Shown here one piece after another: positions 2,282 to 17,251 of a stretch of 64,000 nucleotides of DNA (its first letter is position 1; each line of letters starts with the position of its first letter). A program made the position numbers and the translations under genes. The DNA lies in NCBI RefSeq assembly GCF_900143215.1, contig NZ_FRDM01000008.1, positions 62,001 through 126,000 on the forward strand. The letters are read 5' to 3'. The stretch comes from Geodermatophilus obscurus. Lineage in GTDB: Bacteria > Actinomycetota > Actinomycetes > Mycobacteriales > Geodermatophilaceae. Below the pieces are notes generated by a model. The model ran no database searches, was not told the DNA's origin, and worked only from the letters and a program-made list of their open reading frames with translations.

Positions 2282-3198
2282 GAGGGCGCGCCTCCCAGCA
2301 GCAGGTACAGGACGGCCATGCGCACGGAGACCCCGTTGCCGACCTGCTCGACGATCGTGGAGCGGACGGAGTCGGCCACCTCGGCGGCGATCTCCATCCC
2401 GCGGTTCATCGGGCCCGGGTGCATGACGATCGCCTCGTCGCCCAGGGCCCCCATCCGGCGCGCGTCCAGGCCGTAGCGGCGGCTGTACTCGCGGGCGCTG
2501 GGGAAGTACGAGGCGTTCATCCGCTCGGCCTGGACCCGCAGCATCATCACCACGTCGGCCTTGGGCAGGACGACGTCCAGGTCGTAGGAGACCTCCGCCG
2601 GCCAGCTGCCCACCCCGACCGGCAGCAGGGTCGGCGGCGCGACGAGGGTGACCTCGGCGCCGAGGGTGTGCAGCAGCCGCACGTTGGAGCGGGCCACCCG
2701 GCTGTGCAGCACGTCGCCGACCACGGCCACGCGCACGCCCTCCAGCCGGCCCAGCCGGTGCCGGATCGTGTAGGCGTCCAGCAGCGCCTGGGTGGGGTGC
2801 TCGTGGGTGCCGTCGCCGGCGTTGACCACGCTGCCGCGCACCCAGTTGGCCAGCCGGTGCGGTGCGCCCGAGGCCGAGTGCCGGACGACGATCGCGTCGG
2901 AGCCCATCGCCTCGAGGGTCAGCGCGGTGTCCTTGAGGCTCTCGCCCTTGGAGACGCTGCTGCCCTTGGCGGAGAAGTTGAGGACGTCGGCCGACAGCCG
3001 CTTGGCGGCCAGCTCGAAGGAGATCCGGGTGCGGGTGGAGTCCTCGTAGAAGAGGTTGACCACCGTCCGGCCGCGCAGCGTGGGCAGCTTCTTGACCTCT
3101 CGGCCGGCCAGCGCCTGGTCGATCTGCGCGGCGGTGTCGAGCACCAGCGTCGCGTCGGCGCGGTCGAGGTCCGCCGCCTCCAGCAGGTGGCGCTTCAC
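2278..3198 (-). CDS. pyrB: Aspartate carbamoyltransferase catalytic chain
   Basis: Transfers the carbamoyl group to aspartate in pyrimidine synthesis. 306 residues from a GTG start whose GTGA overlaps the pyrR stop. The carbamoyl phosphate motif FYEDSTRTR is at about 50-58 and the HEHPTQ motif follows GDGT near residue 130. No pyrI gene is visible, as usual for actinobacteria. An upstream in-frame extension is possible in principle, but the family begins at the chosen Val-Lys-Arg-His start. Confidence 0.95.
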
Positions 3199-3794
3199 TG
3201 CTCCCCCTCCGTCACGACGACCTCGTCCACGCCGTCGACCTCGGCCAGCCGGACCCGCACCGACTGGTTGCGCGAGGTCGGCAGGTTCTTGCCCACGTAG
3301 TCGGCCCGGATGGGCAGCTCGCGGTGGCCGCGGTCGACCAGCACCGCCAGCTGCACCGCGCGCGGGCGGCCGAGGTCGCGCAGCGCGTCGAGCGCCGCGC
3401 GCACCGACCTCCCCGAGTAGAGGACGTCGTCGACCAGGACGACGAGCCGGCCGTCGATGCCGCCCTCGGGCAGCAGGGTCTCCTCCAGCGCACGGACGCC
3501 CCGCATGCGCAGGTCGTCGCGGTACAGGGTGATGTCGACGGCGCCGACGTCGACCGGGCTGCCGGCGAAGGCCTCCACGCGGGCGGCCAGCCGGCGGGCC
3601 AGCGGAGCGCCGCGGGTGGGGATGCCGACGAGGACCAGGTCGGCGAGGCCGCCGGCGGCGTCGTCGCCCGCCCCGGCGCACTTCTCGATGAGCTGGTGGG
3701 CCATCCGGTCGACCACGCGGGTCACGTCGGCGGCGGAGAGCACTGCGGACGGCGACGAGAGGTCGCTGCGGGCAGGCTCGGGCTGGCGGGCCAT
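3195..3794 (-). CDS. pyrR: PyrR: pyr operon regulator / uracil phosphoribosyltransferase
   Basis: RNA-binding regulator of the pyr operon, usually with uracil phosphoribosyltransferase activity. 199 residues; the PRPP-binding loop [13 protein letters not shown] sits at about 118-130 and the family motifs IPTRG and LYRDDL are present. It is the first gene of the operon and its own ribosome binding site lies in a hairpin that matches the PyrR target (see 3799-3836), so autoregulation is likely. The first ~20 residues are a poorly conserved extension. Confidence 0.95.
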
Positions 3795-3798
3795 CAGG

Positions 3799-3836
3799 CC
3801 TCCTTCCCCGCCTCACGGGACGGGTCGTTAAAGGAG
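3799..3836 (-). promoter_or_regulatory. PyrR-binding hairpin sequestering the pyrR Shine-Dalgarno
   Basis: Read on the minus strand, the leader just before pyrR holds CTCCTT, then CCCG, a loop beginning TCCCGTGAGG, then CGGG and AAGGAGG. CTCCTT can pair with AAGGAG, the Shine-Dalgarno sequence four bases before ATG. The segment CGUCCCGUGAGGCG (3809-3822) agrees with the published PyrR recognition consensus ARUCCNGNGAGGYU at 12 of 14 positions. This fits the translational repression described for mycobacterial PyrR, not the attenuation used in Bacillus. Confidence 0.78.
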
Positions 3837-4013
3837 TGGTCGGACCGGCGTCGACGGTACTGCACGCTGCGAGGTGACCCGCGACGCGCCGGGAGAGGAC
3901 ACGATCGGGGGCCTGCCGACCCCGAGGAGCGTCCCGGTGTCGTCGGACCCGCTCGACCAGTACGCTCCGTGACGACAACCCCGCCCCGACGACGGACAGT
4001 GAGCAGGAAGCGA

Positions 4014-4565
4014 ATGAGCACCGACTACTCACGGGCCCTCGGTGCCCGGCTCCGCGCCATCCGCAACCAGCAGGGGCTCTCGCTCCAGGGAGTCGAGGAC
4101 AAGTCCCACGGCCGCTGGAAAGCAGTGGTCGTCGGGTCCTACGAACGCGGCGACCGTGCCGTGACGGTGCAGCGGCTCTCCGAGCTCGCGATCTTCTACG
4201 GCGTACCCGTCTCCGAGCTGCTGCCCGACCCGCGGCCCAGCTCGGCGGTCACGTCGACGACGAAGATCGTGCTGAACCTCGAGTCGCTGGGCTCGCTGCC
4301 CGCGGACGAGGCCGGACCGCTGGCCCGGTACGCCTCGACCATCCAGGCGCAGCGCCACGACTACAACGGCAAGGTCCTCTCCATCCGGGCCGAGGACCTC
4401 AAGTCGCTGGCGATCATCTACGACATGAGCCCCGACGAGCTGACCAGCCGGCTCATCGAGTGGGGCGTCCTCTCCCCCGGGATGGAGAGCGTCGTCGGCT
4501 TCGGCGGCGACGAGGACGAGGACGAGGTCAACCCGAACTGGGAGCGCCGCCGGGCCCCACGCTGA
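4014..4565 (+). CDS. bldD: BldD, c-di-GMP-responsive developmental repressor
   Basis: Global transcription regulator that in Streptomyces represses sporulation genes when dimerised by tetrameric c-di-GMP. 183 residues. An XRE-type helix-turn-helix fills residues 1-70 ([22 protein letters not shown]...). The C-terminal domain keeps the c-di-GMP signature RxD-x8-RxxD as RHD (114-116) and RAED (125-128). An acidic run (DEDEDE, near 166-171) closes the protein. The ATG has a weak upstream AGGAAG. It is divergent from pyrR; the 219-base gap must hold both promoters. In related genomes I would expect nusB nearby; here an island intervenes. Confidence 0.93.
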
Positions 4566-4667: not shown

Positions 4668-7370
4668 TCAGGACCGCGCCAGGGCGGCCGTCGGCAGCAT
4701 CGCCCTCAGGTCCGCGCGGCTGCTGATCCCCAGTTTGGTGTAGGCGTGCGAGAGGTGGGTCTCCACCGTGCGCACCGACACCACGAGCCGGTCGGCGATC
4801 GCCTGGTTGCTCAGCCCCGCGCTGGCCAGTCGGGCGACCTCCTGCTCCCGGGCGGTCAGCGCCGGCAGCGGCAGGACCTCGAGCGCCGACCCCTGGGTCA
4901 GGCCGCACTCGCGGGCGAAGGTGGCCGCCCGCAGTCGGGCTGCGGCCGCCGCCCGGCGTTCCCCGCGCCGCTCGTAGGCGGAGGCGGCCTCGGTCGCCGC
5001 GTCCGCGGCCAGCAGCAGCGCTCCGCTCTGCTCGAAGCGGGAGCTCACCTTGTCCAGCCCCTCGGCGGACTCGGCGACAGCGGCCGCCGCGTGGGCGGCG
5101 AGGTCGGCCATGAACGGTGCGTCCAGCCGTTCGGCCTGTCGGTGCAGCCGGTCGACGATCCGCGGGCCTTGTCCCAACCGCAGACCGTCGTGCAGCAGGA
5201 CCGCCTCGACGGCCTCCTGGCCCTGACGGGCGGCCAGCGCAGCCGCCTCGAGGACCAGGACACCGGCCTGGCCCCTCCGGCCCTCCGCGGCAGCGACCCA
5301 TGCCTCTGCCATGCGCCGCAGCGGATCGAACACCGCGACCGCCCCGGCACCGGCCGGCTGCGAACCGTCCAACAGCCGACGGGCGCCGCAGACGTCTCCG
5401 ACGAGGGCTCGCGCCGCCGCCAGGGAGGACCGGCACAGCGGGAGCAGTCCGACCGGATCCCGCTCCTCGAGAGCCGGTAGCGCCTCGGCCAACCAGCGGC
5501 TGGCCACGCGCGGCCGCCCGCTGGCCAGGGCCGCCCACCCGCGGTGGACACCGGCGATCGCATCCCCGATCCACTCCGGCGTCGTCGTCAGGTTCTGCCG
5601 GTGCAGTTCCGCCGCCCGCCGCTCGAGTCGGCAGAACCGTCCGCTCAGACCCAGCGCCAGGATCTCCGCCTGGTCGAGCGTCACCCGAGCGTGGATCCGT
5701 TCCGCCGGACCGGGGTCGGCGTCGAGCGCCAGCCGACCCGACTCGACCGTGGTCAACGCCTGATCCGTCCGGCCGGTCACCGCCAGGCCGGCTGCCACCG
5801 CGGCCGCCGCCAGCGCGTGGGCGGCGCCCGCAGGCGCGGACAGCACGGTGGTGCCCTCCTGCACCGCCCGGTGGGGATCCCCGCCGAGGAAGGCCAGCAT
5901 CGCCTCGGCCGCGGTGAGGAGGGCGCGGGCGCCGTCGTCCTGCACGGTCGCACGGGTCTCGCGGAGCACCGCCCCCGCCTGGTCGAGCTGCCCGAGCCCG
6001 CAGCAGAGGGTCAGCGCCCGAGCCGCTGCCAACCGAGCCCGGTCGTCGTCGGAGCGCACCGCGGGTGCTGCGGCGGCGGCGAGCCGGTCGGCGAGCGCCG
6101 GCCGGCCCTGCCACCGGACTGCCTCGACCAGCGTCGCGTGGGCCGGGAACCCGCCACCCTCCTCGACGGCGGCCCGGGCCAGGCGCTCGGCCAGGGGGAG
6201 GTCCAGCTGTGCGACCGCGTGACGGGCCCCGGCGGTCAACAGGGCGCCGCTGTGCGCGGTGGCGCCGCTGTCGAGCAGCACGGCGGCGCGGTGCAGCAGG
6301 TGGTCGTCGCGTCCACCGGCGGCCTGGTCCCGGGCCAACCGGGAACGGATCCGTTGCCGCGCGGCCTCCGGTACGAGGCTCCGGACCACCTCGGTGTACA
6401 GCGGGTGGGCGACCTGGACCTCCCCGGACCCGCCCGCGTCGTCGATCATGCCGCGCCGCTCCAGAGCGGCGACAGCCTCCGGACTGCTGAGCTCCACGAC
6501 CTGTTCGACGCTGCATGTCCCCGCCGTGCCGAGCACGTGCAGAGCCCGCCACTCGTCCGCATCCAGGTCCCCCACGTGGGCCAGGACGATCTCCGAGAGG
6601 CGTTGCGACGGGACCATCTCCCCGGCCCAGGACCAGAGGTCCTCGTACTGCCGCAGCCGGCCGGTACGCAGGCCGTCCTCCACGAGCTCGTGCAGGTACA
6701 GCGGGTTCCCCCGGCTCAGCCGCCAGAGACGCTCGACGGTCCGGGTGTGCACCTGACCGCCCACGCAGTGGCCGATCAGCAGGTCGGCGTCCTCACGCTG
6801 GAGCGGCTGCAGCTCGATGCGGGTGGCCAGCCCGTCCTTCCACAGGGTCGCCGCCGGGTCCTGGACGGCGTTGCCGGTGCGGACCGTCAGGACGAGGCGC
6901 ACGGCCCCGCCGGCGGCGAGCTGGTGCAGGAGGGTGATCGACAGGGGGTCGAGGAGGTGGACGTCGTCGACCCCCAGGACGGGTAGCGGTCCGGCGCGGT
7001 CGCCGACGATGACCCGGGTCGCCTGCTGCAGGAGTGCCAGGGTGTCCGCCCCGGTGTCGAGGGCAGGGAGGAGGTGGGCGAAAGCGCCGAACGGCACCTG
7101 GGCAGCCGCCCTCGTCCCCGCGGCCCAACGGGTGGAACGGCCCTGGTCCTCGGCCAGGGACAGCGCCTCCCGGGCGAGCCGGGTGCGGCCGACACCTGCC
7201 GGACCCACGATCACCAGGTTGCCCGGAGAATCGGCGCCCCACGCGTCGAGGATGACCCGGCAGGCGGCATCCCGACCGAACAGCAGCGTGCGCTCCCCCG
7301 CCATCAGTCCGTCGGAGCAGGGGTCGACGACTGGCTCTCCTGTGGATGACCTCCGCTCGAGATCAGCCAC
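4668..7370 (-). CDS. Large ATP-binding LuxR-family (LAL/MalT-like) transcription regulator
   Basis: A 900-residue signal-transduction ATPase regulator: N-terminal NTPase, long helical middle (Ala/Leu-rich, TPR-like), C-terminal LuxR helix-turn-helix with LTAREQEVARLASAGLSNQAIA followed by SVRTVETHL. The Walker A loop at about 56-63 reads GPAGVGRT, with Arg in place of the usual Lys; Walker B is VLGVDDVHLLD. It faces the peptide-gene cluster across a 638-base divergent region, which makes it the likely regulator of that cluster. Start uncertain: a GTG at 7370 is used, but an ATG at 7304 (MAGERTLLFGRD) also fits, and neither has a clear Shine-Dalgarno. Confidence 0.88.
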   Translation of the reverse strand: MADLERRSSTGEPVVDPCSDGLMAGERTLLFGRDAACRVILDAWGADSPGNLVIVGPAGVGRTRLAREALSLAEDQGRSTRWAAGTRAAAQVPFGAFAHLLPALDTGADTLALLQQATRVIVGDRAGPLPVLGVDDVHLLDPLSITLLHQLAAGGAVRLVLTVRTGNAVQDPAATLWKDGLATRIELQPLQREDADLLIGHCVGGQVHTRTVERLWRLSRGNPLYLHELVEDGLRTGRLRQYEDLWSWAGEMVPSQRLSEIVLAHVGDLDADEWRALHVLGTAGTCSVEQVVELSSPEAVAALERRGMIDDAGGSGEVQVAHPLYTEVVRSLVPEAARQRIRSRLARDQAAGGRDDHLLHRAAVLLDSGATAHSGALLTAGARHAVAQLDLPLAERLARAAVEEGGGFPAHATLVEAVRWQGRPALADRLAAAAAPAVRSDDDRARLAAARALTLCCGLGQLDQAGAVLRETRATVQDDGARALLTAAEAMLAFLGGDPHRAVQEGTTVLSAPAGAAHALAAAAVAAGLAVTGRTDQALTTVESGRLALDADPGPAERIHARVTLDQAEILALGLSGRFCRLERRAAELHRQNLTTTPEWIGDAIAGVHRGWAALASGRPRVASRWLAEALPALEERDPVGLLPLCRSSLAAARALVGDVCGARRLLDGSQPAGAGAVAVFDPLRRMAEAWVAAAEGRRGQAGVLVLEAAALAARQGQEAVEAVLLHDGLRLGQGPRIVDRLHRQAERLDAPFMADLAAHAAAAVAESAEGLDKVSSRFEQSGALLLAADAATEAASAYERRGERRAAAAARLRAATFARECGLTQGSALEVLPLPALTAREQEVARLASAGLSNQAIADRLVVSVRTVETHLSHAYTKLGISSRADLRAMLPTAALARS

Positions 7371-7764
7371 TGCTGTGCCCAGACGTGCACAGGAACGATC
7401 ATCACCGCAAGCTCCCCCGGGCCCATGTTCGAAACGGCCCTGTCGCGGAGAGTAGTGGTGATTTCGTCACCGAGCCGTCTCATCACGGGACGTCTCGCGT
7501 TCTCGTCGCATCGACGCGGCCCGGACGGTCGGGTCAGCACGGAGGGTGACGATGCGCTTACGACGCCGTGGCTTCACCGAGACCGTCCCGGACCAGCGCC
7601 CCGATGACAACTGGGCGTGCCGCCGACAGGGTCGCGCCGACGTTGTCCCGGACGACGTGACGAGCGGATCGCGGCCAGCCTCGGCGCCCCAGGTCCCACC
7701 ACGCCGTCCCCGAGTCGCGTCCCGACGATCAGCACTGGTGTCACGGAGGCGCCGCCGCCGGGTG

Positions 7765-7874
7765 CTACGTGGTCGGGCGCCGTCGGTACGTGACCCACTG
7801 CGGTCAAATCCGTACGCACAGCCCTCATCTCGGTGGCGCTCGGCGTTGCCTGGACGCCGACCTCTCGTCAGGAT
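7765..7874 (+). promoter_or_regulatory. Promoter region P1 of Gly-rich peptide gene 1
   Basis: TTGCCT (7846-7851) and CAGGAT (7869-7874) are exactly 17 bases apart, a vegetative-type -35/-10 pair that recurs with identical hexamers and spacing before the two other peptide genes. Upstream lies CTACGTGGTCGGGCG (7765-7779), a motif also found before the others, which may bind the divergent LuxR-type regulator. Nothing else recognisable is in the 7371-7764 stretch; frames there do not look coding. Confidence 0.7.
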
Positions 7875-8008
7875 CGATTTCGCCGACATCGACACGGTGA
7901 TCGGCGGCCAGCCGGGCCGGAAATGGACACGGCCCGCCCGCGGGCTGCCTCTACGCGAGGTTTTCGGCCCTTCTGGCACCATTTCGTCGCGACATTCCAG
8001 GAGGAACC
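7875..8008 (+). promoter_or_regulatory. Long conserved 5' leader of peptide gene 1
   Basis: About 130 transcribed but apparently untranslated bases run from the P1 -10 box to the ATG. The segment is nearly identical to the leader of peptide gene 3 (12800-12932), with only a few substitutions, although the two genes are 5 kb apart. It ends in CCAGGAGGAACC, a strong Shine-Dalgarno shared by all three peptide genes. GC-rich inverted segments (for example GCCCGCCCGCGGGC) could fold. No riboswitch class is recognised. Confidence 0.6.
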
Positions 8009-8245
8009 ATGTTCGAGGACCAGACCGTCGACCTGCTGCCCGCACGGACCACCCTGCAGGCCGGAGCGGGCGGTAACGGCGGACGGGGCGGTCGCGGCGG
8101 CGACGCCCTCGCCGTCTCGGCCGCGGTCATCTTCGTCGGTGGCGACGTGGACGACAGCAGCTTCACGGCGACGTCCGCTGCGGCCACGGCGACCGGTGGT
8201 GCCGGTGCCGCCGGTGGCGACGGTGGTGACGGCGGCGACGACTGA
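8009..8245 (+). CDS. Small Gly-rich peptide 1 (candidate precursor peptide)
   Basis: 78 residues, not a family I can name. Three zones are visible: an N-terminal block MFEDQTVDLLPARTTLQAG shared almost unchanged by all three paralogues; a GGNGGRGGRGG tract; a beta-prone hydrophobic centre (ALAVSAAVIFVGGDV); and a second Gly/Asp-rich tail ending GGDGGDGGDD. There is no Cys, no signal peptide and no transmembrane segment. The constant front and variable body are typical of leader/core precursors. It sits beside a PqqD-domain membrane protease and a glutaminyl cyclase, which supports export or maturation. It could instead be a structural surface peptide. Strong AGGAGG six bases before ATG. Confidence 0.82.
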   Translation: MFEDQTVDLLPARTTLQAGAGGNGGRGGRGGDALAVSAAVIFVGGDVDDSSFTATSAAATATGGAGAAGGDGGDGGDD

Positions 8246-8268
8246 TCGCTGAACTGCGCTCTGGCGGC

Positions 8269-8324
8269 ACCGCACCGATGACACCGCACCGATGACACCG
8301 TGGCGATGACACCGTGGCGATGAC
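8269..8324. repeat. Four tandem 14-bp repeats after peptide gene 1
   Basis: Four adjoining units of ACCGNNNCGATGAC (ACCGCACCGATGAC twice, then ACCGTGGCGATGAC twice) follow the stop codon. The same unit appears once after gene 2 and about twice after gene 3, so copy number varies between the 3' regions. Confidence 0.85.
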
Positions 8325-8346
8325 GGCCTGCCGCTGAGCCGATGAC

Positions 8347-8381
8347 GAGGAGGGGCGCCCGGATACCGGTCGCCCCTCCTC
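8347..8381 (+). terminator. Terminator hairpin after peptide gene 1
   Basis: GAGGAGGGGCG (8347-8357) pairs perfectly with CGCCCCTCCTC (8371-8381) around a 13-base loop that can itself partly pair. Homologous hairpins follow peptide genes 2 and 3. Confidence 0.8.
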
Positions 8382-8497
8382 CCGTCTCCTCCACAGGTCC
8401 TGGGCGGACGCCCCGACCGGTCGATCCCCTCGGGCCTCCCCACAAGGGCAGCTGCACCGCCGGCTAGCGCATCCCGGCGCCGCGAGACGTGACCGGA

Positions 8498-8608
8498 CTA
8501 CGTGGTCCGGACCCCGTTGTACGTGGTCGGGCGGGGGCGGCTCCGTGGAATTGCGCCGCAATCCCCGTGATGCACGGCGTTGCCTGTTCCTGTCCGGCTC
8601 GTCAGGAT
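8498..8608 (+). promoter_or_regulatory. Promoter region P2 of Gly-rich peptide gene 2
   Basis: TTGCCT (8580-8585) and CAGGAT (8603-8608), spacing 17, match P1 and P3. Two upstream copies of the shared motif are present: CTACGTGGTCCGG (8498-8510) and TACGTGGTCGGGCG (8520-8533). A small palindrome ATTGCGCCGCAAT lies just upstream of the -35. The leader to the ATG is longer (about 170 bases) and, apart from its last bases, differs from those of genes 1 and 3. Confidence 0.7.
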
Positions 8609-8787
8609 CGGTCGGGCCAACACCGGAATGGTGTCGATCTCGACGGGGTGATCCGCTCTCGGGCGGATGGGAACGAATCCGGCTTGTTGTGGCTCCCTCT
8701 CGGGCTGCATTCACGGCGGCCTCGGTTTCCGAACGCCATCACCTCGTGTCCTCGGCACCATCTCGTCCAGGACATCCAGGAGGAACC

Positions 8788-9030
8788 ATGTTCGAAGACC
8801 AGACCATCGAGCTGCTGCCCGCTCGGACCACGCTGCAGGCCGGCTGGGGCGGTAACGGCGGTAACGGCGGCCGTGGCGGGGACGCGCTCGCCGCCTCGAC
8901 CGCGGTCGTCATCATCTACGGAGACGTGATCGACAGCGAGATCACGGTGATCTCCGGTGCCGCGACGGCGACCGGTGGCGCCGGCGGCGACGGCGGCGAC
9001 GGCGGCTGGGGTGGCGACGACAACGACTGA
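8788..9030 (+). CDS. Small Gly-rich peptide 2 (candidate precursor peptide)
   Basis: 80 residues, paralogue of the genes at 8009 and 12933. The front block is MFEDQTIELLPARTTLQAG; the Gly tracts read GWGGNGGNGGRGG and GGDGGDGGWGGDDND, so this copy alone carries Trp in both tracts. The centre (ALAASTAVVIIYGDVIDSEITVISG) is the most diverged zone. Same Shine-Dalgarno, own promoter, own terminator. It is the copy closest to the membrane protease gene, which begins 145 bases after its stop and beyond the hairpin. Confidence 0.82.
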   Translation: MFEDQTIELLPARTTLQAGWGGNGGNGGRGGDALAASTAVVIIYGDVIDSEITVISGAATATGGAGGDGGDGGWGGDDND

Positions 9031-9091
9031 TCGTTGAGCGTTGTCAGCGGCACCGCGTCGATGACGCCGGCCTGCCGCTGAACCGGTGAGG

Positions 9092-9124
9092 AGGAGGGGC
9101 GACCGGGCACCGGTCGCCCCTCCT
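9092..9124 (+). terminator. Strong hairpin between peptide gene 2 and protease gene
   Basis: A 14-bp perfect stem (9092-9105 with 9111-9124) closes a five-base loop. It lies 50 bases before the protease start. No separate promoter for the protease is obvious in the gap, so partial read-through may set a high peptide to low protease ratio. Confidence 0.82.
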
Positions 9125-9174
9125 TCCGTCCGACCCGAGGTCCTCGGACCCCGGGCAGAGTTGAGGTGAGCTGG

Positions 9175-11460
9175 ATGACGACCCTGACCGACGACGGGCA
9201 GAGCCCGCCCACGGCCGTCGTGGGAGACCCCGGGCGCCGGCTCGCCGAGGGCACGGAGCTGCTCGGGGAGTACCAGGACTCCGGGTACCAGACGCCCAAG
9301 TTCCTCGTGCGACGGGCCGACGGCCAGGTCATGCAGCTGCCGCTGCTCCTGTACCGGGTGGCCAGCCTCCTGGACGGTCGTGACACCGAGCGCATGGCCA
9401 CGGACCTGAGCGCCGAACTCGGCCAGGACCTCACCGCCGACCAGGTGTCGTACCTGGTCGAGGAGCGGCTCCGGCCGGCCGGCCTCCTCGCCCCCGACCA
9501 CACCGACGCCGACGACCCCGGCACGGTGACGGCCCCGACCCGGTCCGATCCCCTGCTCGCCCTCCGTTTTAGGAAGCCCGTGGTCCCGGCCGGGGTCACG
9601 TGGCGCATCGCCGGCGTCTTCCGGCTGCTCTTCAGGCGTCCCGCATGGGTGGCGGCGCTGGCCACCTTCCTGGCTCTGGACGCGCTCGTCCTCCTGCAGG
9701 GCGACTTCGTGAGCCGCGTCGCGGCGGGCGCGACCACGTTGGTCCACCGGCCCGAGCTGACCCTCGTCCTCCTCACGCTCCTGGTCCTCTCGATGGCCTT
9801 CCACGAGATCGGCCACGTCACGGCGTGCCGCTACGGCGGGGCCCGTCCTGGCGACATGGGGGTCGGCCTGTACCTCGTCTGGCCGGCCCTCTACAGCACG
9901 GTGACCGACACCTACCGCCTGGGTCGGGTCGGACGGCTGCGCACGGACCTCGCGGGCGTCTACTTCAACGCCATCTTCATGGCCGTCCTGACCGGCCTGT
10001 ACCTCCGCACGGACGCGACCTGGCTGCTCCCGGGGATCCTGCTCATGCACGTCCAGGCCGCCCAGCAGTTCCTGCCCAGCATCCGGTTCGACGGCTACTA
10101 CATGCTCGCCGACCTGGCCGGGGTGCCCGAGCTGTTCAACTACGTGGGCCCGGTGCTGAAGAGCCTGGTCCCGGGCAGACCAGCACATCCTCGGGTCCAG
10201 GAGCTGCGGCCCCGCTCACGGCGGCTGATCGTGCTCTGGGTCACGGTGACCGTCCCCATGCTGCTGTTCTACCTGGTCACGTTCCTGCTCGTCGTGCCGA
10301 GAGTCCTGCCGGTGGTGTGGGACGTGCTGCTCGACTACCAGAGCCGGATGGAGGCGGCGATGCGGGCCGGCGACGTCACGACCGTCGCCCTGAGCGTGTT
10401 CCAGCTCCTCCTCATCCTCCTGCCCTGGGTGGGCGCCGCCCTGGTGGTCGCCATGCTCGCGGGGATCCTGCGTCGCCTCGGCGATGCGCGGGGATGGGCG
10501 TGGGCCGCCCCCGGTCGCTGGATCGCCGTCCGGCGGTACGCAGCCGTCGCAGGTGTCGCCGGGGTCGCCGGTGCGCTCGTCTGGCGAGTGGCGCAGGTGG
10601 CCGGGTCGGCTCCGACGTCGACCCCCGACACCGGGGCGGTCGGAGGGCAGGCCGACGTGCTGACCGGCAGCCCGGCGCTCGCGGTGCTGCCCTCCGTTGT
10701 GCTGGTCGCCTGCTTCCTGGCGTCGGCCGCGCTGCTCCGGTGGCGACTGTCGGCGGTCGTCGTGCCGCTGGCCGTAGTCGCGGCGATGGGGCCCGCCGTC
10801 TCCGTCCTGGCCACTCCGTCCCCTGCCGTGGTCGGTGCGGCGTGGACGGCACTGGGGGCGACGATCCTGGTGACGGCGAACCGGCTCGGTGCCAGCGGAG
10901 GTCGACGAGGACCACGGTCGGTGCCGTGGCAACGTGCCCTGATCGGAGCGGGGGTGGTGGCCATCGCCGCCGGGGTGGCGACGACGCCGCTGCTGGTGCT
11001 GCCGCTGGCAGTGGGTGCTGCGCTCCTGGCCATCCGGACGGGGTGGCGAAGCCACGGGCCGATGCGCGAATGGCTCCTGTCGATCGTCGGCGTGCTCGGG
11101 GTCACCGCGCTGGCCGCCCTGGCCACGCCCGCTCTGCTCCGGACGATCCCGGGCGCGCTGTCCCCCGCGGGGCACCAGGTCCTCCTGCTGATCGCGGGGC
11201 TGACCGTGATCGGCGCGTCGATGGTCCGCGAGCTCCGGTGGGCGGCCGCCGCCCTCGTCCTCGTCGTCATGATCGCCGTCGTTCCCGCGCTCGGCGGCGC
11301 CGCCGGCCTTCCCCTCGTGCTCTGCTCGACCGTCGTGCTCGGTGCGCTGCTCGTCCAGGCGCTGACGCGTCACCCGGTCGAGGACCGGCCGCACCCACTG
11401 CTCAGGGCACTGCTCGTCGTCCCGACCCTCGTCGTCGTGATCGTCGGGGCCCTCCTCTGA
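9175..11460 (+). CDS. Membrane M50-type zinc metalloprotease with N-terminal PqqD-like domain
   Basis: 761 residues. Residues ~22-105 resemble a PqqD-type winged-helix RiPP recognition domain (pattern DGQVMQLPLLLYRVASLLDG ... LVEERLRPAGLL). A multi-pass membrane region follows with the site-2-protease zinc motif AFHEIGH (His210, Glu211, His214) and the third ligand region RFDGYYML (Asp306). The second half (~340-761) is a further array of hydrophobic helices, longer than the common ~400-residue relatives of this type. ATG at 9175 is chosen over a GTG three codons upstream because GAGGTGAG is well placed. It probably recognises and cleaves, or moves, the adjacent Gly-rich peptides in the membrane; that link is inferred from domain logic and position. 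Confidence 0.88.
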   Translation: MTTLTDDGQSPPTAVVGDPGRRLAEGTELLGEYQDSGYQTPKFLVRRADGQVMQLPLLLYRVASLLDGRDTERMATDLSAELGQDLTADQVSYLVEERLRPAGLLAPDHTDADDPGTVTAPTRSDPLLALRFRKPVVPAGVTWRIAGVFRLLFRRPAWVAALATFLALDALVLLQGDFVSRVAAGATTLVHRPELTLVLLTLLVLSMAFHEIGHVTACRYGGARPGDMGVGLYLVWPALYSTVTDTYRLGRVGRLRTDLAGVYFNAIFMAVLTGLYLRTDATWLLPGILLMHVQAAQQFLPSIRFDGYYMLADLAGVPELFNYVGPVLKSLVPGRPAHPRVQELRPRSRRLIVLWVTVTVPMLLFYLVTFLLVVPRVLPVVWDVLLDYQSRMEAAMRAGDVTTVALSVFQLLLILLPWVGAALVVAMLAGILRRLGDARGWAWAAPGRWIAVRRYAAVAGVAGVAGALVWRVAQVAGSAPTSTPDTGAVGGQADVLTGSPALAVLPSVVLVACFLASAALLRWRLSAVVVPLAVVAAMGPAVSVLATPSPAVVGAAWTALGATILVTANRLGASGGRRGPRSVPWQRALIGAGVVAIAAGVATTPLLVLPLAVGAALLAIRTGWRSHGPMREWLLSIVGVLGVTALAALATPALLRTIPGALSPAGHQVLLLIAGLTVIGASMVRELRWAAAALVLVVMIAVVPALGGAAGLPLVLCSTVVLGALLVQALTRHPVEDRPHPLLRALLVVPTLVVVIVGALL

Positions 11461-11897
11461 TCGCGCCGATGCGATGAGCGTGTGCCGGCTGCGGGGTCTC
11501 GCGGACTGCCGGGGCCAGCGTGCGCCGTGTCTGGGGTCGGCCCCGTGGCCCGCGCGGTGCCGGATCGGGTGGCGGATCGGCGGTGGCTGACCCCGGACCG
11601 GCGGCTGGAGCGGCCGTGCCGAGCGCGCCTCCTCCACCTCGCCGTCAACAGCGGTCGCCACGGGCGTCCGAAGAGAGGGCGGCTGCGCACCGGTCGTGGA
11701 GGTGAAGCCAACGTACCCGGCCCGACTCGACTGCCTGGCTGTGGAGTCTCACGGACTGTTCCCGGTTTGCACCGGAATGGACTCCGAATTGCACGCGCGA
11801 CGAGTGACGACCAGCGCGTCGGGGGGGACACTGTTGCTGAGCAGTGGACATTCCTGAGGACACCATCGAGATCTCTACACATTTCATGGAGGTAGCC
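11461..11897 (+). other. 437-base gap without a recognisable gene
   Basis: Between the protease and the collagen-like lipoprotein gene. Open frames here on both strands are Arg/Pro-rich GC artefacts without ribosome binding sites. I see no promoter matching P1-P3. The last ~170 bases have lower GC than the surroundings and probably contain the promoter of the next gene. Confidence 0.5.
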
Positions 11898-12392
11898 ATG
11901 CACTTTTCTGTGTCAAGTCTGACGCGGGCCACCAAGCTCTGTGCGGATGCCCTCGTCCCGGCGCTGGTGCTCGTGGCGTGCTCGACCTCCGCCGATGCGA
12001 GCAGTTCTGGGACAGCCGGTGCCGCGAGCGCGGCCGGGTCCGCCGGTGCGGCCGGGTCCGCCGGTGCGCCCGGGTCCGCCGGTGCGCCCGGCTCGCCCGG
12101 CTCGCCTGGTGCGGCCGGCTCCCCCGGTACCGATGCCGGTGCCAGCGCCATGAGCATCGCTTCCTGCTCGGGGAACTCGTGCTCGGTGACGCTCGCAGGC
12201 ACCGGCTCACTCGTCCAGGTCCTCGGTGCGACGATCTCGGTCGAGGAGGTTCGCGACGGCCGGGCAGCCCTTCGCGTCGACGACCAGGACATCGCCTGCA
12301 CGGAGGGACAGAGCGCATCGGCCGGCTCCCTGACGCTGACGTGCACGGAGGTCACGGGCGACACCGTCACCGTGACCGTCTCCCCCGGCTGA
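11898..12392 (+). CDS. Secreted/lipoprotein with collagen-like Gly-X-Y stretch and 4-Cys domain
   Basis: 164 residues. The N-terminus MHFSVSSLTRATKLCADALVPALVLVACSTS looks like a signal peptide with lipobox LVAC, suggesting an anchored exported protein. Residues ~40-85 are collagen-like (units such as GSAGAPGSAGAPGSPGSPGAAG, split here for description into GSA, GAP, GSP repeats). The last ~80 residues form a compact beta-rich domain with four Cys (CSGNSC, DIAC, LTC), likely two disulfides. The same domain recurs in the gene at 14206. ATG chosen for its GGAGGT Shine-Dalgarno; an upstream in-frame ATG lacks one. Function unknown; a cell-surface partner of the Gly-rich peptides is a reasonable guess. 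Confidence 0.8.
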   Translation: MHFSVSSLTRATKLCADALVPALVLVACSTSADASSSGTAGAASAAGSAGAAGSAGAPGSAGAPGSPGSPGAAGSPGTDAGASAMSIASCSGNSCSVTLAGTGSLVQVLGATISVEEVRDGRAALRVDDQDIACTEGQSASAGSLTLTCTEVTGDTVTVTVSPG

Positions 12393-12710
12393 TGCGCTGG
12401 CCCTCGGAAGGGGCACGTCGGTCGACGGCGCGAGGCGCCCGGCGCAGCGCCGATGGCGAGGCGCGGCCAGCGGCCGTCGACGCCCGGTGACGGCTGCACG
12501 CGGCCACGAGCGACACCAGGGTCCGGACGGCGTCCCGACGGACTGCCTCGCAGGCCGTGCGCGGTGGACCGGCCGCTTTCTCACTTTCCCCGGCTCCGGC
12601 TCGGGCAGGCACCTGCGCCCGGCTCCGGCCCGCTGGACGAGCCTCCGCTCATCCGCAGCTCGCTCCGTGTGGTCCCGGAGAGGCGTGGACCTGCGTGTCC
12701 GGGTCCGCGG
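12393..12710. other. 318-base gap without a recognisable gene
   Basis: Follows the collagen-like gene. I see only GC-artefact frames; regulatory elements of peptide gene 3 begin at 12711. Confidence 0.5.
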
Positions 12711-12799
12711 CTACGTAGTCCGCTCCCATAGATCCGTGTGCACGCACCGTCATCTCGGTGGCGCTCACCGTTGCCTGGACGTCGACTCCTCGTCAGGAT
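12711..12799 (+). promoter_or_regulatory. Promoter region P3 of Gly-rich peptide gene 3
   Basis: TTGCCT (12771-12776) and CAGGAT (12794-12799), spacing 17, as in P1 and P2. The upstream motif is CTACGTAGTC (12711-12720), a variant of CTACGTGGTC. CATCTCGGTGGCGCTC, shared with P1, lies just before the -35. Confidence 0.68.
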
Positions 12800-12932
12800 C
12801 GAATTCGCCGACATCGACACGGTGATCGGCGGCCAGCCGGGCCGGAAATGGACACGGCCCGCCCGCGGGCTGCCTCTACGCGAGGTTTCCGGCCCTTCTG
12901 GCACCATTTCGTCGAGCATTCCAGGAGGAACC
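12800..12932 (+). promoter_or_regulatory. Long conserved 5' leader of peptide gene 3
   Basis: Near-identical to the leader at 7875-8008, with a handful of substitutions, and ends in the same CCAGGAGGAACC. The conservation is higher than in the coding parts of the two genes, which suggests a functional RNA leader or gene conversion. Confidence 0.6.
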
Positions 12933-13169
12933 ATGTTCGAGGACCAGACCGTCGATCTGCTGCCCGCACGGACCACCCTGCAGGCCGGAGCGGGCGGTGC
13001 CGGCGGTCGAGGGGGTCGCGGCGGCGACGCCGTCGCCATCTCGGCCGCGGTCATCTTCGTCCAGGGCAACGTGGACGACAGCACGTTCACGGTGCAGTCC
13101 GGTACTGCCGGGGCGACCGGTGGCGACGGCGGTGCCGGTGGCGCCGGTGGCGCCGGCGGTAACGACTGA
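12933..13169 (+). CDS. Small Gly-rich peptide 3 (candidate precursor peptide)
   Basis: 78 residues; third paralogue, closest to peptide 1. Front block MFEDQTVDLLPARTTLQAG, then GGAGGRGGRGG, a hydrophobic centre (AVAISAAVIFVQGNV), and a Gly-rich tail ending GGAGGAGGND, less acidic than in the other two. Preceded by the common Shine-Dalgarno and followed by the 14-bp repeat units and a terminator. It lies directly upstream of the glutaminyl cyclase lipoprotein gene. No known family recognised. Confidence 0.82.
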   Translation: MFEDQTVDLLPARTTLQAGAGGAGGRGGRGGDAVAISAAVIFVQGNVDDSTFTVQSGTAGATGGDGGAGGAGGAGGND

Positions 13170-13239
13170 TCGCTGGACGGCCTGGCGGCACCGCACCGAT
13201 GACCCCATGTCGATGACGGCCTGCCGCTGACCCGGTGAC

Positions 13240-13274
13240 GAGGAGGGGCGACCGGACACCGGTCGCCCCTCCTC
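13240..13274 (+). terminator. Terminator hairpin after peptide gene 3
   Basis: A 16-bp perfect stem (13240-13255 with 13259-13274) around a three-base loop; homologous to the hairpins at 8347 and 9092. Confidence 0.85.
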
Positions 13275-13360
13275 CCACGACTCCCACCGGTCCGTGACCC
13301 CTCGGCGCTGCCGAACCTGAGTGACCTCCACACCACGCCTCAAGGGATCGAGATCGCTCC

Positions 13361-14209
13361 ATGAACCGTCTGATCCACCGTCGAGCCCTCGGCGTCGTCC
13401 TCACCGTCGCGGTCCTGGGCGGCTGCTCGTCAGGGGACGGCGCGGAGGTCTCCACCGCGGGTCAGCCGGCGCAGCTCCAGGACGCCGTCACGGGCGACTC
13501 GGCGCAGTCGTTCCCGGTCCTGCGCCCCGAAGTCCTGGCCGAGGTGCCGCACGACCCGTCCGCCTTCACCCAGGGGCTGGAGCTGCACGAGGGCACCCTC
13601 TACGAGGGCACCGGCCTCGAGGGCGAGTCCCAGCTGCGCGTGCTCGACCTGGAGACCGGGGAGGTGCTGCGCGCCGAGTCACTGCCCGGAGAGCTGTTCG
13701 GGGAGGGCATCGCCGTGGCCGGGGACCGCATCTGGCAGCTCACCTGGCAGGACGGCGTGGTGCTCGAGTGGGACCGCGCCACCCTCACCCTGCGCCAGCA
13801 GCTGCCGCTCGACGGGGAGGGATGGGGGCTGTGCTCCGACGGCACCCGCCTGGTGCGCAGCGACGGGACGGACCGGCTGCGCTTCCACGACCCGGTCACC
13901 TTCGCCGAGACCGGCTCGGTCGCGGTGACGGTCGACGGCGAGCCGCTGACCCAGCTGAACGAGCTGGAGTGCGTCGACGGGCAGGTCTGGGCCAACGTGT
14001 GGCCGTCCGACGTCCTCGTCCGCATCGACCCGGCGAGCGGACGGGTCACCGCCGCCGTGGACGCGGCCGGGCTGCTCGACCCGGAGCAGCGCGCGAACGC
14101 CGACGCGGTGCTCAACGGCATCGCTGCCCTGGGCAACGACGAGTACCTGCTCTCCGGGAAGCTGTGGCCCGTCTCGTTCCGCGTCCGGTTCGTGGAGGGG
14201 AGTCGATGA
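13361..14209 (+). CDS. Lipoprotein glutaminyl-peptide cyclotransferase (plant-type)
   Basis: 282 residues. The N-terminus MNRLIHRRALGVVLTVAVLGGCSSG is a lipoprotein signal with lipobox LGGC. The remainder matches the five-bladed beta-propeller glutamine cyclotransferase family (PHDPSAFTQGLEL, GTLYEGTG, LTWQDGVVLEWD, LNELECVDGQVWANVW, VLNGIA). Such enzymes convert N-terminal Gln to pyroglutamate outside the cytoplasm. All three Gly-rich peptides carry a conserved Gln17, which would be exposed if the leader is cut after TTL, giving a natural substrate; this is inference. The ATG has only a weak Shine-Dalgarno. Its stop overlaps the next start (ATGA). Confidence 0.9.
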   Translation: MNRLIHRRALGVVLTVAVLGGCSSGDGAEVSTAGQPAQLQDAVTGDSAQSFPVLRPEVLAEVPHDPSAFTQGLELHEGTLYEGTGLEGESQLRVLDLETGEVLRAESLPGELFGEGIAVAGDRIWQLTWQDGVVLEWDRATLTLRQQLPLDGEGWGLCSDGTRLVRSDGTDRLRFHDPVTFAETGSVAVTVDGEPLTQLNELECVDGQVWANVWPSDVLVRIDPASGRVTAAVDAAGLLDPEQRANADAVLNGIAALGNDEYLLSGKLWPVSFRVRFVEGSR

Positions 14210-14538
14210 CCGATCGGGGTCACGGCCGGGCCGGGGTCTCGTCCCGCGCCGTCAGCGCGTCCGCGGCGGGCGCGTCCGGCTCCGGGTCCAGATCCGTGAG
14301 CCTCGTGTCCTGTTCCGGGGACGTCTGCTCGGTGACGCTCGGCGGCCGCGGCTCGCGAGCGCACGTCCTCGGGACGACGTTCGGCCTCGCGGCGGTCGAC
14401 GGGAACCGGGTGACGCTCCGCGTCGACGACCGCGACGTCACCTGCGACCTGGGGCGGACCGTTGCGGTCGGCGCACTGCGCCTCACCTGCACGTCCGCGA
14501 CGGACGACACGGTGGCGTTCACGGTCGCCCGAGGCTGA
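14206..14538 (+). CDS. 4-Cys domain protein, paralogue of the collagen-like protein's C-terminus
   Basis: 110 residues, coupled to the cyclase gene by an ATGA overlap. Residues ~30-110 align along their length with the C-terminal domain of the protein at 11898: CSGDVCSVTL, LRVDDRDVTC, LRLTCTSATDDTV, keeping all four Cys. It lacks the signal peptide and the collagen-like repeats; its first ~30 residues are Ser/Ala/Gly-rich. Without a signal the disulfide-type Cys pattern is odd; it may be exported with a partner or be a remnant. Function unknown. Confidence 0.72.
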   Translation: MTDRGHGRAGVSSRAVSASAAGASGSGSRSVSLVSCSGDVCSVTLGGRGSRAHVLGTTFGLAAVDGNRVTLRVDDRDVTCDLGRTVAVGALRLTCTSATDDTVAFTVARG

Positions 14539-14556: not shown

Positions 14557-15145
14557 TCAGCCGCGACCCCATCGCAACATCCGCGGCCTCGCCGGGTCCC
14601 GGTTGTCCACCAGGACGTCAGCGGCCCGCACCGGGTCGGCCTCGGCACGGTAGAGCGCCTGACCGGGCAGGTAGCGCGCCCGGTACCGGTGCTCCACCTC
14701 GGCCGCCGAGCCGTAACGAGCGAGGTCGCGGACGAGGGCGCGGGCCAGCGTCACCTCCTCCGGGACCCGCAGGTACACCGACAGCTGCCGGAAGGGGCGC
14801 AGCTCCGGCCGCAGCACGAAGACCCTGTCGACGACCAGCACCCGCCGGGGCTGCGCCCGAGGCGCCGTCCCGGAAGGGGACCGGACACTCCCCGACCAAC
14901 CGGGGCAGGTCGGTGCCGTCCCGGTGGAAACCCTCGGGCGACAGCTCGCCGCGCCGGTAGCGCTCCTCCGGCGGGTGGGGGAAGTCGTCGACCGGGGCGC
15001 GGTGCACCTCGCCGGGGAGGGCGGCGGCCAGCGTGGTCTTGCCGGCGGCGTCGGAGCCGTCGATCCCGACGAGGACCCGCCGGCGGACCCGGCGCAGGTC
15101 GGTGACCGCGGCCGCGAGCCGCCCGACCAGATCCGCGACGTTCAG
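14557..15145 (-). pseudogene. Broken uridine kinase-like P-loop gene
   Basis: The 5' part, in one frame, encodes VLVGIDGSDAAGKTTLAAALPGEVHR ... DDFPHPPEERYRRGELSPEGFHRDG (quoted in parts), clearly a uridine/phosphoribulokinase-like P-loop protein. The 3' part (from about 14850 to 14557) encodes VLVVDRVFVLRPELRPF and the rest of the fold in another frame. Roughly 30 codons normally between these parts seem missing, so a frame-changing deletion near 14850 is likely. There is also no ATG or GTG start after the nusB stop; only a CTG at 15145 is available. A sequencing error cannot explain the missing segment. Confidence 0.68.
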
Positions 15146-15549
15146 CTGGTGGGGACCTCGGCGTCGAGCACGCCGCCCAGGACGCCGTTGACGTAGGCCG
15201 GCGAGTCGTCGGTCGACAGCGACCGGGCCAGCTCGACGGCCTCGTCGATCACGACGGCGTCGGGCACGTCGTCGACCCACAGCAGCTCGAAGACCGCCAT
15301 CCGCAGGATCGCGCGGTCGACGTCGGGCAGCCGGTCGATCGACCAGCCGCGCGCGTGCCGGTCGATCAGCTCGTCGACGCGGGCGGCGTGCTCGGCCACC
15401 CCCTCCACCAGCCGGACGGCGTGGTCGGGGATCGGCGGGTTGGCGAGGGCGACCCGCTCCCGGAGCAGCTCCACCGGGTCGCTGCCGCGGACGTCGGCCT
15501 CGTAGAGGACGTCGACGGCGCGCTTGCGCGCCTTGCTGCGGGCAGCCAT
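15142..15549 (-). CDS. nusB: Transcription antitermination factor NusB
   Basis: 135 residues, all NusB fold: MAARSKARKRAVDVLYEAD at the start, RHARGWSIDRLPDVDRAILRMAVFELLW in the middle, and VIDEAVELARSLSTDDSPAYVNGVLG near the end. Binds the boxA RNA with NusE (S10) during rRNA transcription. It follows efp by 24 bases on the same strand. Confidence 0.95.
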   Translation of the reverse strand: MAARSKARKRAVDVLYEADVRGSDPVELLRERVALANPPIPDHAVRLVEGVAEHAARVDELIDRHARGWSIDRLPDVDRAILRMAVFELLWVDDVPDAVVIDEAVELARSLSTDDSPAYVNGVLGGVLDAEVPTS

Positions 15550-15573
15550 GAGTTCCCGAACCCGCCCGAGCCG

Positions 15574-16134
15574 TCAGTTGGCGCGGCCGAGGTACCGGCC
15601 GTCGCGGGTGTCGACCTTGAGCTTGTCGCCGGTGTTGACGAACAGCGGCACCTGGATCTGCGCGCCGGTCTCCAGCGTGGCGGGCTTGGTGCCGCCGGTG
15701 GACCGGTCGCCCTGCAGGCCCGGGTCGGTGTGCTGCACCACCAGCTCCAGGGTCACGGGGAGCTCGACGTAGAGCGGGGTGCCCTCGTGGACGGCGACGA
15801 CGACCTCGGTGTTCTCGAGGAGGTAGTCCGCGCCGCTGCCGAGGGTCTCGGCCGGGACGTGGATCTGGTCGTAGGTCTCGCCGTCCATGAAGACGAAGTC
15901 GGTGCCGTCCCTGTACAGGTACGTCATGCTCCGCTTGTCGACGGTGGCGGTGTCCACCTTGGTGCCGGCGTTGAAGGTCCGGTCGACGACCTTGCCCGAG
16001 AGCACGTTCTTCAGCGTGGTGCGGACGAACGCGCCGCCCTTGCCCGGCTTGACGTGCTGGAACTCGGTGACAGCCCAGAGCTGGCCGTCGAGGTTGAGGA
16101 CCATGCCGTTCTTGAGGTCGTTGGTGGTAGCCAT
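15574..16134 (-). CDS. efp: Elongation factor P
   Basis: 186 residues, the usual length. Relieves ribosomes stalled at polyproline. The loop that reaches the peptidyl-transferase centre is KPGKGGAF, with Lys32 at the tip. Starts one base after the pepQ stop codon. KOW and two OB domains are in order; the C-terminus ends [10 protein letters not shown]. Confidence 0.96.
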
Positions 16135-17250
16135 CTAGAGGACCAGCAGTTCCTTGCTCGTGAGGGTCAACAACTCGGGCTCGTCGTCCGTGACGATCAG
16201 CGTGTCCTCGATCCGGACACCGCCGTGGCCGGGCAGGTAGACCCCCGGCTCCACGGTGACGGCCATGCCGGCGGTCAGCCTACCCGCGCCCAGCTGCCCG
16301 ATGCCCGGCGCCTCGTGGATCTCCAGCCCCACCCCGTGCCCAAGACCGTGGGTGAAGTGCTCCGCGTGGCCGGCCTGCGCGATGACGTCGCGGGCGGCGG
16401 CGTCGACGGCGACCACGTCGGCGCCGACGGCCAGCGCCGCCCGGCCCGCGGCCTGCGCGGCGGCGACCAGCTCGTACACCTCGCGCTGCCAGTCGGCTGC
16501 CGCGCCCAGGACCACGGTGCGGGTCATGTCGGAGTGGTAGCCGTCGACGGTCGCGCCGAAGTCCAGCTTGAGGAGGTCGCCGGCCCGCAGCTCGGTGCTG
16601 TCCGGCCGGTGGTGCGGGATGGCGGAGTTGGCGCCGGCGGCCACGATCGTCTCGAACGACGGCGCCTCGGCACCCAGCGTCAGCATCCGGGAGTCGAGCT
16701 CGCGGCCGACCTGCAGCTCGGTGCGCCCGGGCCGCAGCGCCCCCTCGGCGGCCAGCTCGGCCAGCGCCGCGTCGGCGACCGCGCAGGCCCGGCGCAGGGC
16801 GTCGATCTCGTCGTCGTCCTTGACCGCGCGCAGCGCCTCGACCGCCCGGCGCACGCTGGTCAGCTCCGGCACGGTGCCCCCGGCGGCTGCGTCGGCGAGC
16901 ACCGCCTCCAGCGCACGCAGCCCGTCGACGGTGAGGTGGTGGCTCTCGTACCCGATCGTCCGGGCGGGTGGGCGACCTGATCGAGGCAGCACCGCCTCGC
17001 GCGCCAGGGCGGCGACGGTGCCGCGGTCGACGAGCAGCTCGACGTCCGGCACCTGGGTGCCGGCCTGGGTCGTGTAGCGGCCGTCGGTGCCGAAGACGTC
17101 GCCGCCGTCGGCGCGCAGCAGCAGCGCCCCGTTGGAGCCGGTGAACCCGGTCAGGTAACGCACGTTGAGCAGGTCGGTCACCAGGACGGCGTCCAGCTCG
17201 CGCTCCACCGCCGTCGTCCGCAGCCGCTCCCGTCGCTCCGCGTACCGCAC
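16135..17250 (-). CDS. pepQ: Xaa-Pro aminopeptidase family peptidase (M24B)
   Basis: 371 residues: creatinase-like N-terminal domain, then the pita-bread catalytic domain with the metal ligands in LDFGATVDGYHSDMTRT (two Asp), HGLGHGVGLEIHEAP (His) and the Glu residues of VEPGVYLPG and RIEDT. Releases or processes N-terminal residues next to proline. GTG start. Placed between aroQ and efp, the standard order in actinobacteria. Whether it is an aminopeptidase P or a prolidase cannot be told from sequence alone. Confidence 0.88.
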   Translation of the reverse strand: MRYAERRERLRTTAVERELDAVLVTDLLNVRYLTGFTGSNGALLLRADGGDVFGTDGRYTTQAGTQVPDVELLVDRGTVAALAREAVLPRSGRPPARTIGYESHHLTVDGLRALEAVLADAAAGGTVPELTSVRRAVEALRAVKDDDEIDALRRACAVADAALAELAAEGALRPGRTELQVGRELDSRMLTLGAEAPSFETIVAAGANSAIPHHRPDSTELRAGDLLKLDFGATVDGYHSDMTRTVVLGAAADWQREVYELVAAAQAAGRAALAVGADVVAVDAAARDVIAQAGHAEHFTHGLGHGVGLEIHEAPGIGQLGAGRLTAGMAVTVEPGVYLPGHGGVRIEDTLIVTDDEPELLTLTSKELLVL

Positions 17251-17251
17251 C

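Follow-up and report, generated by a model that had tools for sequence, protein, structure and literature searches.

A putative leader-directed peptide maturation cassette in Geodermatophilus obscurus joins an RRE–site-2 protease to a glutaminyl cyclase

What becomes of three short glycine-rich peptides that are encoded beside a membrane protease in the soil actinobacterium Geodermatophilus obscurus? In the 64,000-nucleotide stretch analyzed here, hereafter the window (contig NZ_FRDM01000008.1 of assembly GCF_900143215.1), the precursors lie on the forward strand at 8009..8245 (peptide 1, 78 aa), 8788..9030 (peptide 2, 80 aa), and 12933..13169 (peptide 3, 78 aa), each behind an AGGAGG ribosome-binding site. 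The same strand encodes a 761-aa fusion of an RRE (PqqD-like) domain to a site-2 protease (9175..11460, from an ATG at 9175, with an alternative GTG start at 9166), a glutaminyl cyclase (QC; 13361..14209) whose N-terminus is by inspection of lipoprotein type, and a collagen-like lipoprotein (11898..12392). A large, divergent, ATP-binding regulator of the LuxR family is encoded on the reverse strand (4668..7370). All the parts listed in a preliminary description of this DNA are present in the stretch.

We propose, with a probability of roughly 0.7, that this cassette carries out leader-directed peptide maturation. The RRE of the membrane protease, presumably on the cytoplasmic side, would bind the constant leader of each precursor, and the site-2-protease core would cut after TT[L/M] in LLPARTT[L/M], leaving a mature peptide that begins at residue 17. 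In the window cassette, a presumably extracytoplasmic QC would then convert Gln17 to an N-terminal pyroglutamate, and the mature peptides would probably be released outside the cell and build surface or matrix material there. Control of the peptide promoters probably falls to the LuxR-type ATPase.

The three precursors share the N-terminus MFEDQT[VI][DE]LLPARTTLQ and are invariant over residues 1–19 except at positions 7 and 8; peptides 2 and 3 are 76–79% identical to peptide 1, and the last residue of all three is Asp. In peptide 1, the leader comprises residues 1–16 (MFEDQTVDLLPARTTL) and the predicted core starts at Gln17. The predicted mature peptides have GGX-repeat ends and a beta-prone middle. 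No family in Pfam or NCBIfam matched the window peptides, and a literature search with five motif strings of the leader returned only unrelated papers. Precursors of this kind are also present in at least seven family-level groups besides Geodermatophilaceae. They define one precursor family, with a leader ending LPxRxx[LM] and a tie to an RRE–site-2 protease, which spans at least eight such groups of actinobacteria and did not turn up in print in our literature searches.

Short precursors with a constant leader, a variable core, and a co-encoded RRE protein are the general mark of a RiPP, so the leader/core logic of the preliminary description is borne out. The pairing of RRE and leader would equally suit a conventional RiPP, such as an antibiotic, with cores that are modified by unlinked tailoring enzymes or cut further, and several variant cores per locus are also seen in many bacteriocin clusters. 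We nevertheless think this fairly unlikely: apart from the QC, no recognized RiPP tailoring enzyme was found among the 18 window proteins scanned, nor among 10 scanned neighbors of distant loci (four of them without a family match), and Cys is absent from 82 of 93 cores. The lack of Cys noted earlier thus describes most cores without being a general rule, since the other 11 of the 93 contain it.

Leader-directed maturation by the protease is consistent with how the genes are distributed. Among 112 Geodermatophilaceae genomes (the family sample), a profile of the three peptides gave 40 matches in 14 genomes, 39 of them within about 5 kb of a match to the close protease, so the peptide set is not a product of chance; the remaining match (G051:C8, E = 5e-4) does not cover the leader. 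The close protease is present in 14 of 14 peptide-bearing genomes, and peptides are present in 14 of the 15 genomes with the close protease; no peptide was detected in the fifteenth, G034, which is 76% complete and has the gene split over contigs. None of the 11 family genomes that carry only a distant paralog has peptides. As the earlier reading implied, then, the peptides are not found widely without the protease.

We examined 100 loci and kept 94, dropping six with less than 900 nt upstream. ORFs with the leader motif, counted outside the family without vetting one by one, lie near 52 of 57 proteases with the motif DGY[YF] (16/17 in the family and 36/40 outside); when the five misses were re-read without filters, four more appeared, giving 56 of 57 RxDGY[YF] loci with a leader ending LPxRxx[LM]. 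Paralogs with DGYH (12 family loci and 20 outside) were rejected as members of the same system, with leader-motif ORFs at 0/32 of their loci. A second pattern, applied without the ribosome-binding-site filter, was found at 49/57 DGY[YF] loci, at 0/32 DGYH loci, and at 1/57 on the antisense strand; both patterns were picked after the loci had been seen, and DGYH loci and the antisense strand served as controls.

Within the protease, residues 19–112 (9229..9510, forward strand) model as a winged-helix RRE fold (pLDDT 87), with RREs as the best PDB matches; TbiB1–leader complexes and PqqD are at the top, although two methyltransferases score equal to PqqD. The Pfam PqqD profile, PF05402, does not match the window protease and has its sole match in this genome on a different contig, so identification by this profile was dropped and the structural test was used instead. 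The PqqD-type fold claimed in the preliminary description is thereby upheld in the structural model, though Pfam misses the domain, and leader binding is the role that the modelled domain would play.

The site-2-protease core (9547..10494, forward strand) carries HEIGH at residues 210–214 and RFDGYY with D306. HExxH and RxDG[YF] are present in every relative that gave a long alignment (52 of 52), and HExxH and the distal Asp-Gly motif are invariant in an alignment of 42; five remote matches (26–30% identity) have HExxH, with RxDG unmatched within the aligned part. The window protease does not reach the gathering score of PF02163 (9.4 bits, E = 0.84; cut-off 27.2). Its model has a site-2-protease fold, all five best structural matches being to SpoIVFB, RseP, or mjS2P, and Foldseek E-values are weak for both protease-domain models (0.009 and 0.1). 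Motifs and fold together suggest that this core cleaves the precursors.

Where the cut would fall is indicated by the QC. The window enzyme is a full-length member of the PF05096 glutamine cyclotransferases (303 bits; cut-off 22.3); it is linked here, and fused elsewhere, to a protease predicted to mature peptides. In the family sample, QC occurs in seven of 112 genomes, at eight places, every one of them at these loci, and three of these (L065, L066, and L067) encode QC and protease as one fusion; no such fusion was found in print among the matches listed. At QC loci, all 24 counted ORFs with the leader motif place Gln immediately behind TT[L/M]; at loci without QC, none of 69 does. By locus, the figures are 8/8 and 0/44. 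Only ORFs lying up to 5 kb from the best protease match were counted, which excluded two or three more distant Gln precursors and the two Lys precursors of a second cassette at L072; none of these breaks the rule. One genome with three cassettes, G057, has QC beside its two Gln cassettes and not beside its Thr cassette.

From this coupling we predict that the cut falls after L16 and exposes Gln17 as the new N-terminus, to be capped as pyroglutamate; gene association by itself thus yields a prediction of cut site and N-terminal chemistry that is exact to one residue. The QC, which the earlier reading listed beside the peptides without giving it this role, is likely the enzyme that tailors them, and its presence is tied to the residue that the predicted cut would expose. 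It might instead be a co-regulated neighbor with another substrate, with Gln17 a coincidence of lineage history. The Fisher p value of the association (1e-9) overstates independence, as the loci are related, and the QC label changes three times on the protease tree, two of these changes being forced by well-supported branches, which leaves two or three separate events. With three fusions of QC to protease, no further QC in the 112 family genomes searched, and, within one genome, QC beside the Gln cassettes only, we hold such a coincidence to be very improbable. Beyond the family the coupling was not found: in the class sample of 394 genomes, 29 have QC, and six of these, one being the window genome, have a protease match as well; the window genome is the only one in which the two lie close together.

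The QC also bears on which fragment is the product. Release of a signal is a frequent job of site-2 proteases, and regulated intramembrane cleavage could free the 16-residue leader to signal inside the cell, perhaps with the LuxR-type ATPase as its receiver. The leader is indeed much better conserved than the core among precursors, and a homolog of the regulator adjoins the protease at 17 of 17 family loci, the window included, where the 5' end of the close-protease gene is complete. However, QC tracks the first core residue rather than the leader, and the several precursor copies with diverse cores at these loci suggest that the core is the product; a leader signal therefore seems to us quite improbable.

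Maturation by an RRE-bearing site-2 protease is not without precedent. According to PMC10036551, daptides (MpaA/DapA with MpaP/DapP) have an intramembrane site-2 protease that carries a fused RRE at its N-terminus and is proposed to remove the leader from several short co-encoded precursors. This architecture is common to the window protease, and in that respect the system is not undescribed, as the preliminary description had it; the leader, the products, and the QC coupling do differ. Daptide precursors have an ELExMEAP leader and an invariant C-terminal Thr in that text, whereas the leader here ends in LLPARTT[LM] and the window peptides in Asp. Daptide loci encode an oxidative decarboxylase, an aminotransferase, and a methyltransferase; the window cassette has a QC instead, none of the three daptide-type enzymes was found among the 18 window proteins scanned, and the sole iron-ADH-clan match among them is 3-dehydroquinate synthase. 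Against the curated daptide family NF041824, the window protease scores 96.8 bits and three relatives 81–102 bits (cut-off 300).

For epipeptides (EpeX/EpeP, YydH, LiaK), the M50 protease is thought both to cleave and to export, as described in PMC10885120. The window protease scores 47.4 bits against NF058609 (YydH/LiaK; cut-off 225), and no radical SAM gene was found among the scanned neighbors. Curated cut-offs and precursor features together rule out membership in either class. In TMcins, the site-2-clan protease TmcP takes off the leader in the membrane; the precursor, in contrast to those described here, contains a transmembrane helix as well as a disulfide, secretion is via ABC proteins, and an RRE is not mentioned in the portion of PMC13252029 available to us.

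No exporter turned up next to the window cassette, and an exporter-type ABC protein adjoins one distant locus (L139), so protease-mediated export is put forward conditionally. Tentatively, and with more doubt than confidence, we suggest that a single polytopic membrane protein recognizes the cytosolic leader through its RRE, threads the precursor and cleaves it within the membrane, passes the core to the outside and, where QC is fused, caps it on emergence. In many actinobacteria, beta-rich, Gly-rich peptides for surface fibers would then leave the cell independently of Sec, Tat, and ABC systems, with a capping enzyme gained or lost along with one substrate residue. Curli, chaplins, rodlins, and GGX-repeat (PE_PGRS-like) proteins are likewise small or repetitive Gly/Ala/Asn-rich chains with an alternating hydrophobic pattern; they leave the cell in other ways, which for curli and chaplins involve Sec signals. 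If the products are fibers, they would be a new kind of surface material in actinobacteria. EpeP has raised the question of whether an intramembrane protease can release peptides outside the cell and have them capped there, and the QC fusions allow it to be tested directly.

No consensus promoters were found. The motif C[CT]ACGT[AG]G is enriched upstream of the peptides, where 16 of 46 sites fall in 1.9% of the sequence, nine of the 16 coming from three near-identical loci. In the window, unstranded copies lie 244 nt upstream of peptide 1 (CTACGTGG, 7765..7772), 290 nt upstream of peptide 2 (CTACGTGG, 8498..8505), and 222 nt upstream of peptide 3 (CTACGTAG, 12711..12718). The upstream zone has no site at L004, a close relative, or at L069, L071–L074, and L077; the zone count omitted the second L072 cassette, which has a site 191 nt upstream. 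Given the near-identical loci and the several cassettes without a site, we regard the motif only as a candidate operator.

Two neighbors probably stand apart from the maturation system. A small protein, P0008 (14206..14538, forward strand), whose start overlaps the QC stop, has the C-terminal domain of the collagen-like lipoprotein. Because this domain is found in 105 of the 112 family genomes, neither protein was retained as a dedicated part, and the lipoprotein, which had been counted as a member, is probably a neighbor with a wider distribution.

The window cassette encodes three glycine-rich precursors of 78–80 aa, in which residues 1–19 are common to all except at positions 7 and 8, together with a 761-aa membrane protease that joins a RiPP recognition element (RRE) to a site-2 protease, a LuxR-type ATPase, a glutaminyl cyclase (QC) and, among these, a collagen-like lipoprotein. 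The divergent ATPase (~900 aa) matches GerE (E 2e-15) and, slightly below the cut-off, AAA_16 (E 2e-7), and a homolog is present at each of the 17 Geodermatophilaceae loci whose protease gene is complete at its 5′ end, the window counted. The QC matches PF05096 (E 2e-90) and has, by inspection, a lipoprotein-type N-terminus; the start of a small protein overlaps the stop of its gene. The functions of all these parts are ones that we infer. The genome is Geodermatophilus-like, and its protease is close to those of Geodermatophilus sp. DSM 45219 (90%) and G. pulveris (77%).

The cassette is flanked at 980–4565 by phosphoribosyltransferase, dihydroorotase-like and BldD-like genes, and at 14557–20680 by nusB, efp and the 3-dehydroquinate synthase and chorismate synthase genes. 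The nusB–efp side is common to 11 of 19 family loci, and the cassette therefore occupies a preferred chromosomal site. A family-profile scan of ten further window neighbors matched eight (amidohydrolase, phosphoribosyltransferase, BldD-like, NusB, EF-P, M24 peptidase, 3-dehydroquinate synthase and chorismate synthase), left two without any match, and found no transporter or RiPP tailoring family among the ten. A 75–80 aa domain with conserved cysteines (CSGxxCSVTL...) lies at 12150–12389 and 14299–14535; Pfam assigns it to no family in either of the window proteins that bear it. Of 112 Geodermatophilaceae genomes searched, 105 have the domain, some of them in up to four copies.

Across these 112 genomes, the protease is found in 26: 15 carry a close group (identity at least 54%), and in 11 a distant group (~40% identity) is the sole type. 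A profile of the three window peptides matches 14 genomes, every one of which carries the close protease, bearing out the preliminary description, which had placed peptides and protease in one maturation system. Within about 5 kb of the close protease lie 39 of the 40 matches; the one close-protease genome without a match is 76% complete and has its protease gene split over contigs, and none of the 11 genomes with the distant protease alone has a match. The family peptides mostly start MF[EA][DN]...[ED]LLP[AEP]RT[TV][LM] (two at locus L074 start longer), and the cores behind these leaders are very diverse. One genome, G057, carries three cassettes (L065, L068 and L074) that differ in cores and in protease C-termini.

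Among 394 genomes of the class, the protease is matched in 68, and the peptide profile matches only the window genome and G119, where the match adjoins a protease. As read from the DNA, class proteases of seven family-level groups other than that of the window (f11, f13, f16, f20, f21, f24, f29) have short ORFs nearby whose leaders end in a related sequence (e.g., ELLPGREALG, EELPDREAMS, ELLPERMTLA). We examined 100 loci. In 94 of them the upstream sequence spans 900 nt or more; among these, 57 encode proteases with RxDGY[YF], 32 encode proteases of a paralogous DGYH type, and five remote ones lack the motif. With patterns chosen after inspecting the loci, on which the counts depend, leader-motif ORFs occur near 52 of the 57 DGY[YF] loci (16/17 in the family, 36/40 outside) and near none of the 32 DGYH or five remote loci; the loci are related, and many genomes are drafts. 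Filter-free reading of the five misses yielded motif ORFs at four more (L112, L136, L144, L145; 56/57). A second pattern, applied without a ribosome-binding-site filter, was found at 49/57 DGY[YF] and 0/32 DGYH loci, and at 1/57 DGY[YF] loci on the antisense strand. Because no DGYH locus has leader-motif peptides and those within the family have recurrent unannotated neighbors (e.g., clusters 11 and 20), the substrate of this paralog is probably another protein. The subfamily includes L080–L091, L103, L106, L114–L116, L119–L122 and L124.

The QC occurs in seven of the 112 family genomes, at eight places, all of them these cassettes; at L065, L066 and L067 it is fused to the protease as its C-terminal domain (PF05096 match over residues about 816–1054, E about 1e-88). 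Of the leader-motif ORFs counted at the eight QC loci, all 24 have Gln immediately after the leader TT[L/M]. The remaining 44 loci that have leader-motif ORFs contribute 69 to the count, none with Gln at this place, the residue being Ala (21), Ser (20), Gly (11), Thr (7), Lys (4), Met (3), Asp (2) or Cys (1); the Fisher value for the association is 1e-9, ignoring kinship of loci. A fuller ORF list for the family gives Gln at 26/26 with QC versus 0/14 without. G057 has QC at its two Gln cassettes and none at its Thr cassette. By eye, the cores of L074, L072 and L077 are of one type; the residue is Gln in L074 and Lys or Asp in the other two, and only L074 has QC. On the protease tree, three changes of the QC label are needed, and well-supported branches require two of them; two or three is thus the number of times the coupling changed. 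Since QC requires a free N-terminal Gln, cleavage by the protease after TT[L/M] is the simplest interpretation. Proteases without QC, such as those of L072, L073 and L077, often end in another soluble-looking region, without any Pfam match, which may be a different domain for tailoring or assembly whose place QC takes elsewhere.

The gene sets, model folds, motifs and QC–Gln coupling are established in this analysis. We infer a route that would start in the cytoplasm, where the RRE would bind the leader; the site-2 core would cleave after residue 16, the peptide core would be released outside the cell, and the QC lipoprotein or domain would there form pyroglutamate on it. There are precedents: MpaP has been termed an RRE-dependent intramembrane peptidase (PMC10036551), and EpeP is thought to perform both cleavage and export (PMC10885120). 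Export by an ABC protein is possible, because an exporter-type ABC protein adjoins L139, one of six matches among ten scanned neighbors of distant loci. The RRE–site-2 protease architecture is already known from daptides, from which the window system differs in leader motif and precursor C-terminus; no daptide enzymes occur among the neighbors scanned. The system works as the final daptide biosynthetic step does, yet is not a daptide. Curated cut-offs for daptides and for epipeptides were missed by far. A literature search covering few subscription papers found none of five spellings of the leader motif in print and, among the matches listed, no QC–protease fusion.

The cores have a median length of 56, with 17% Ala and 16% Gly, and 11 of 93 contain Cys. 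Along the cores, hydropathy shows a period-2 alternation (z 4.6 at lag 2 and 3.0 at lag 6 versus shuffles; 76 non-redundant cores), as would be expected of beta strands, and the window cores carry GGX repeats at both ends. Our preferred guess for the product, at a probability of about one half, is a surface or matrix fibre; a bacteriocin seems rather unlikely, and a signal more doubtful still. The leader also heads longer precursors (L066:4230, minus strand; L067:5186, minus; L065:16063, plus), that of L066 with repeats such as PVAPAMEPV, which suggests that it can direct whole repeat proteins.
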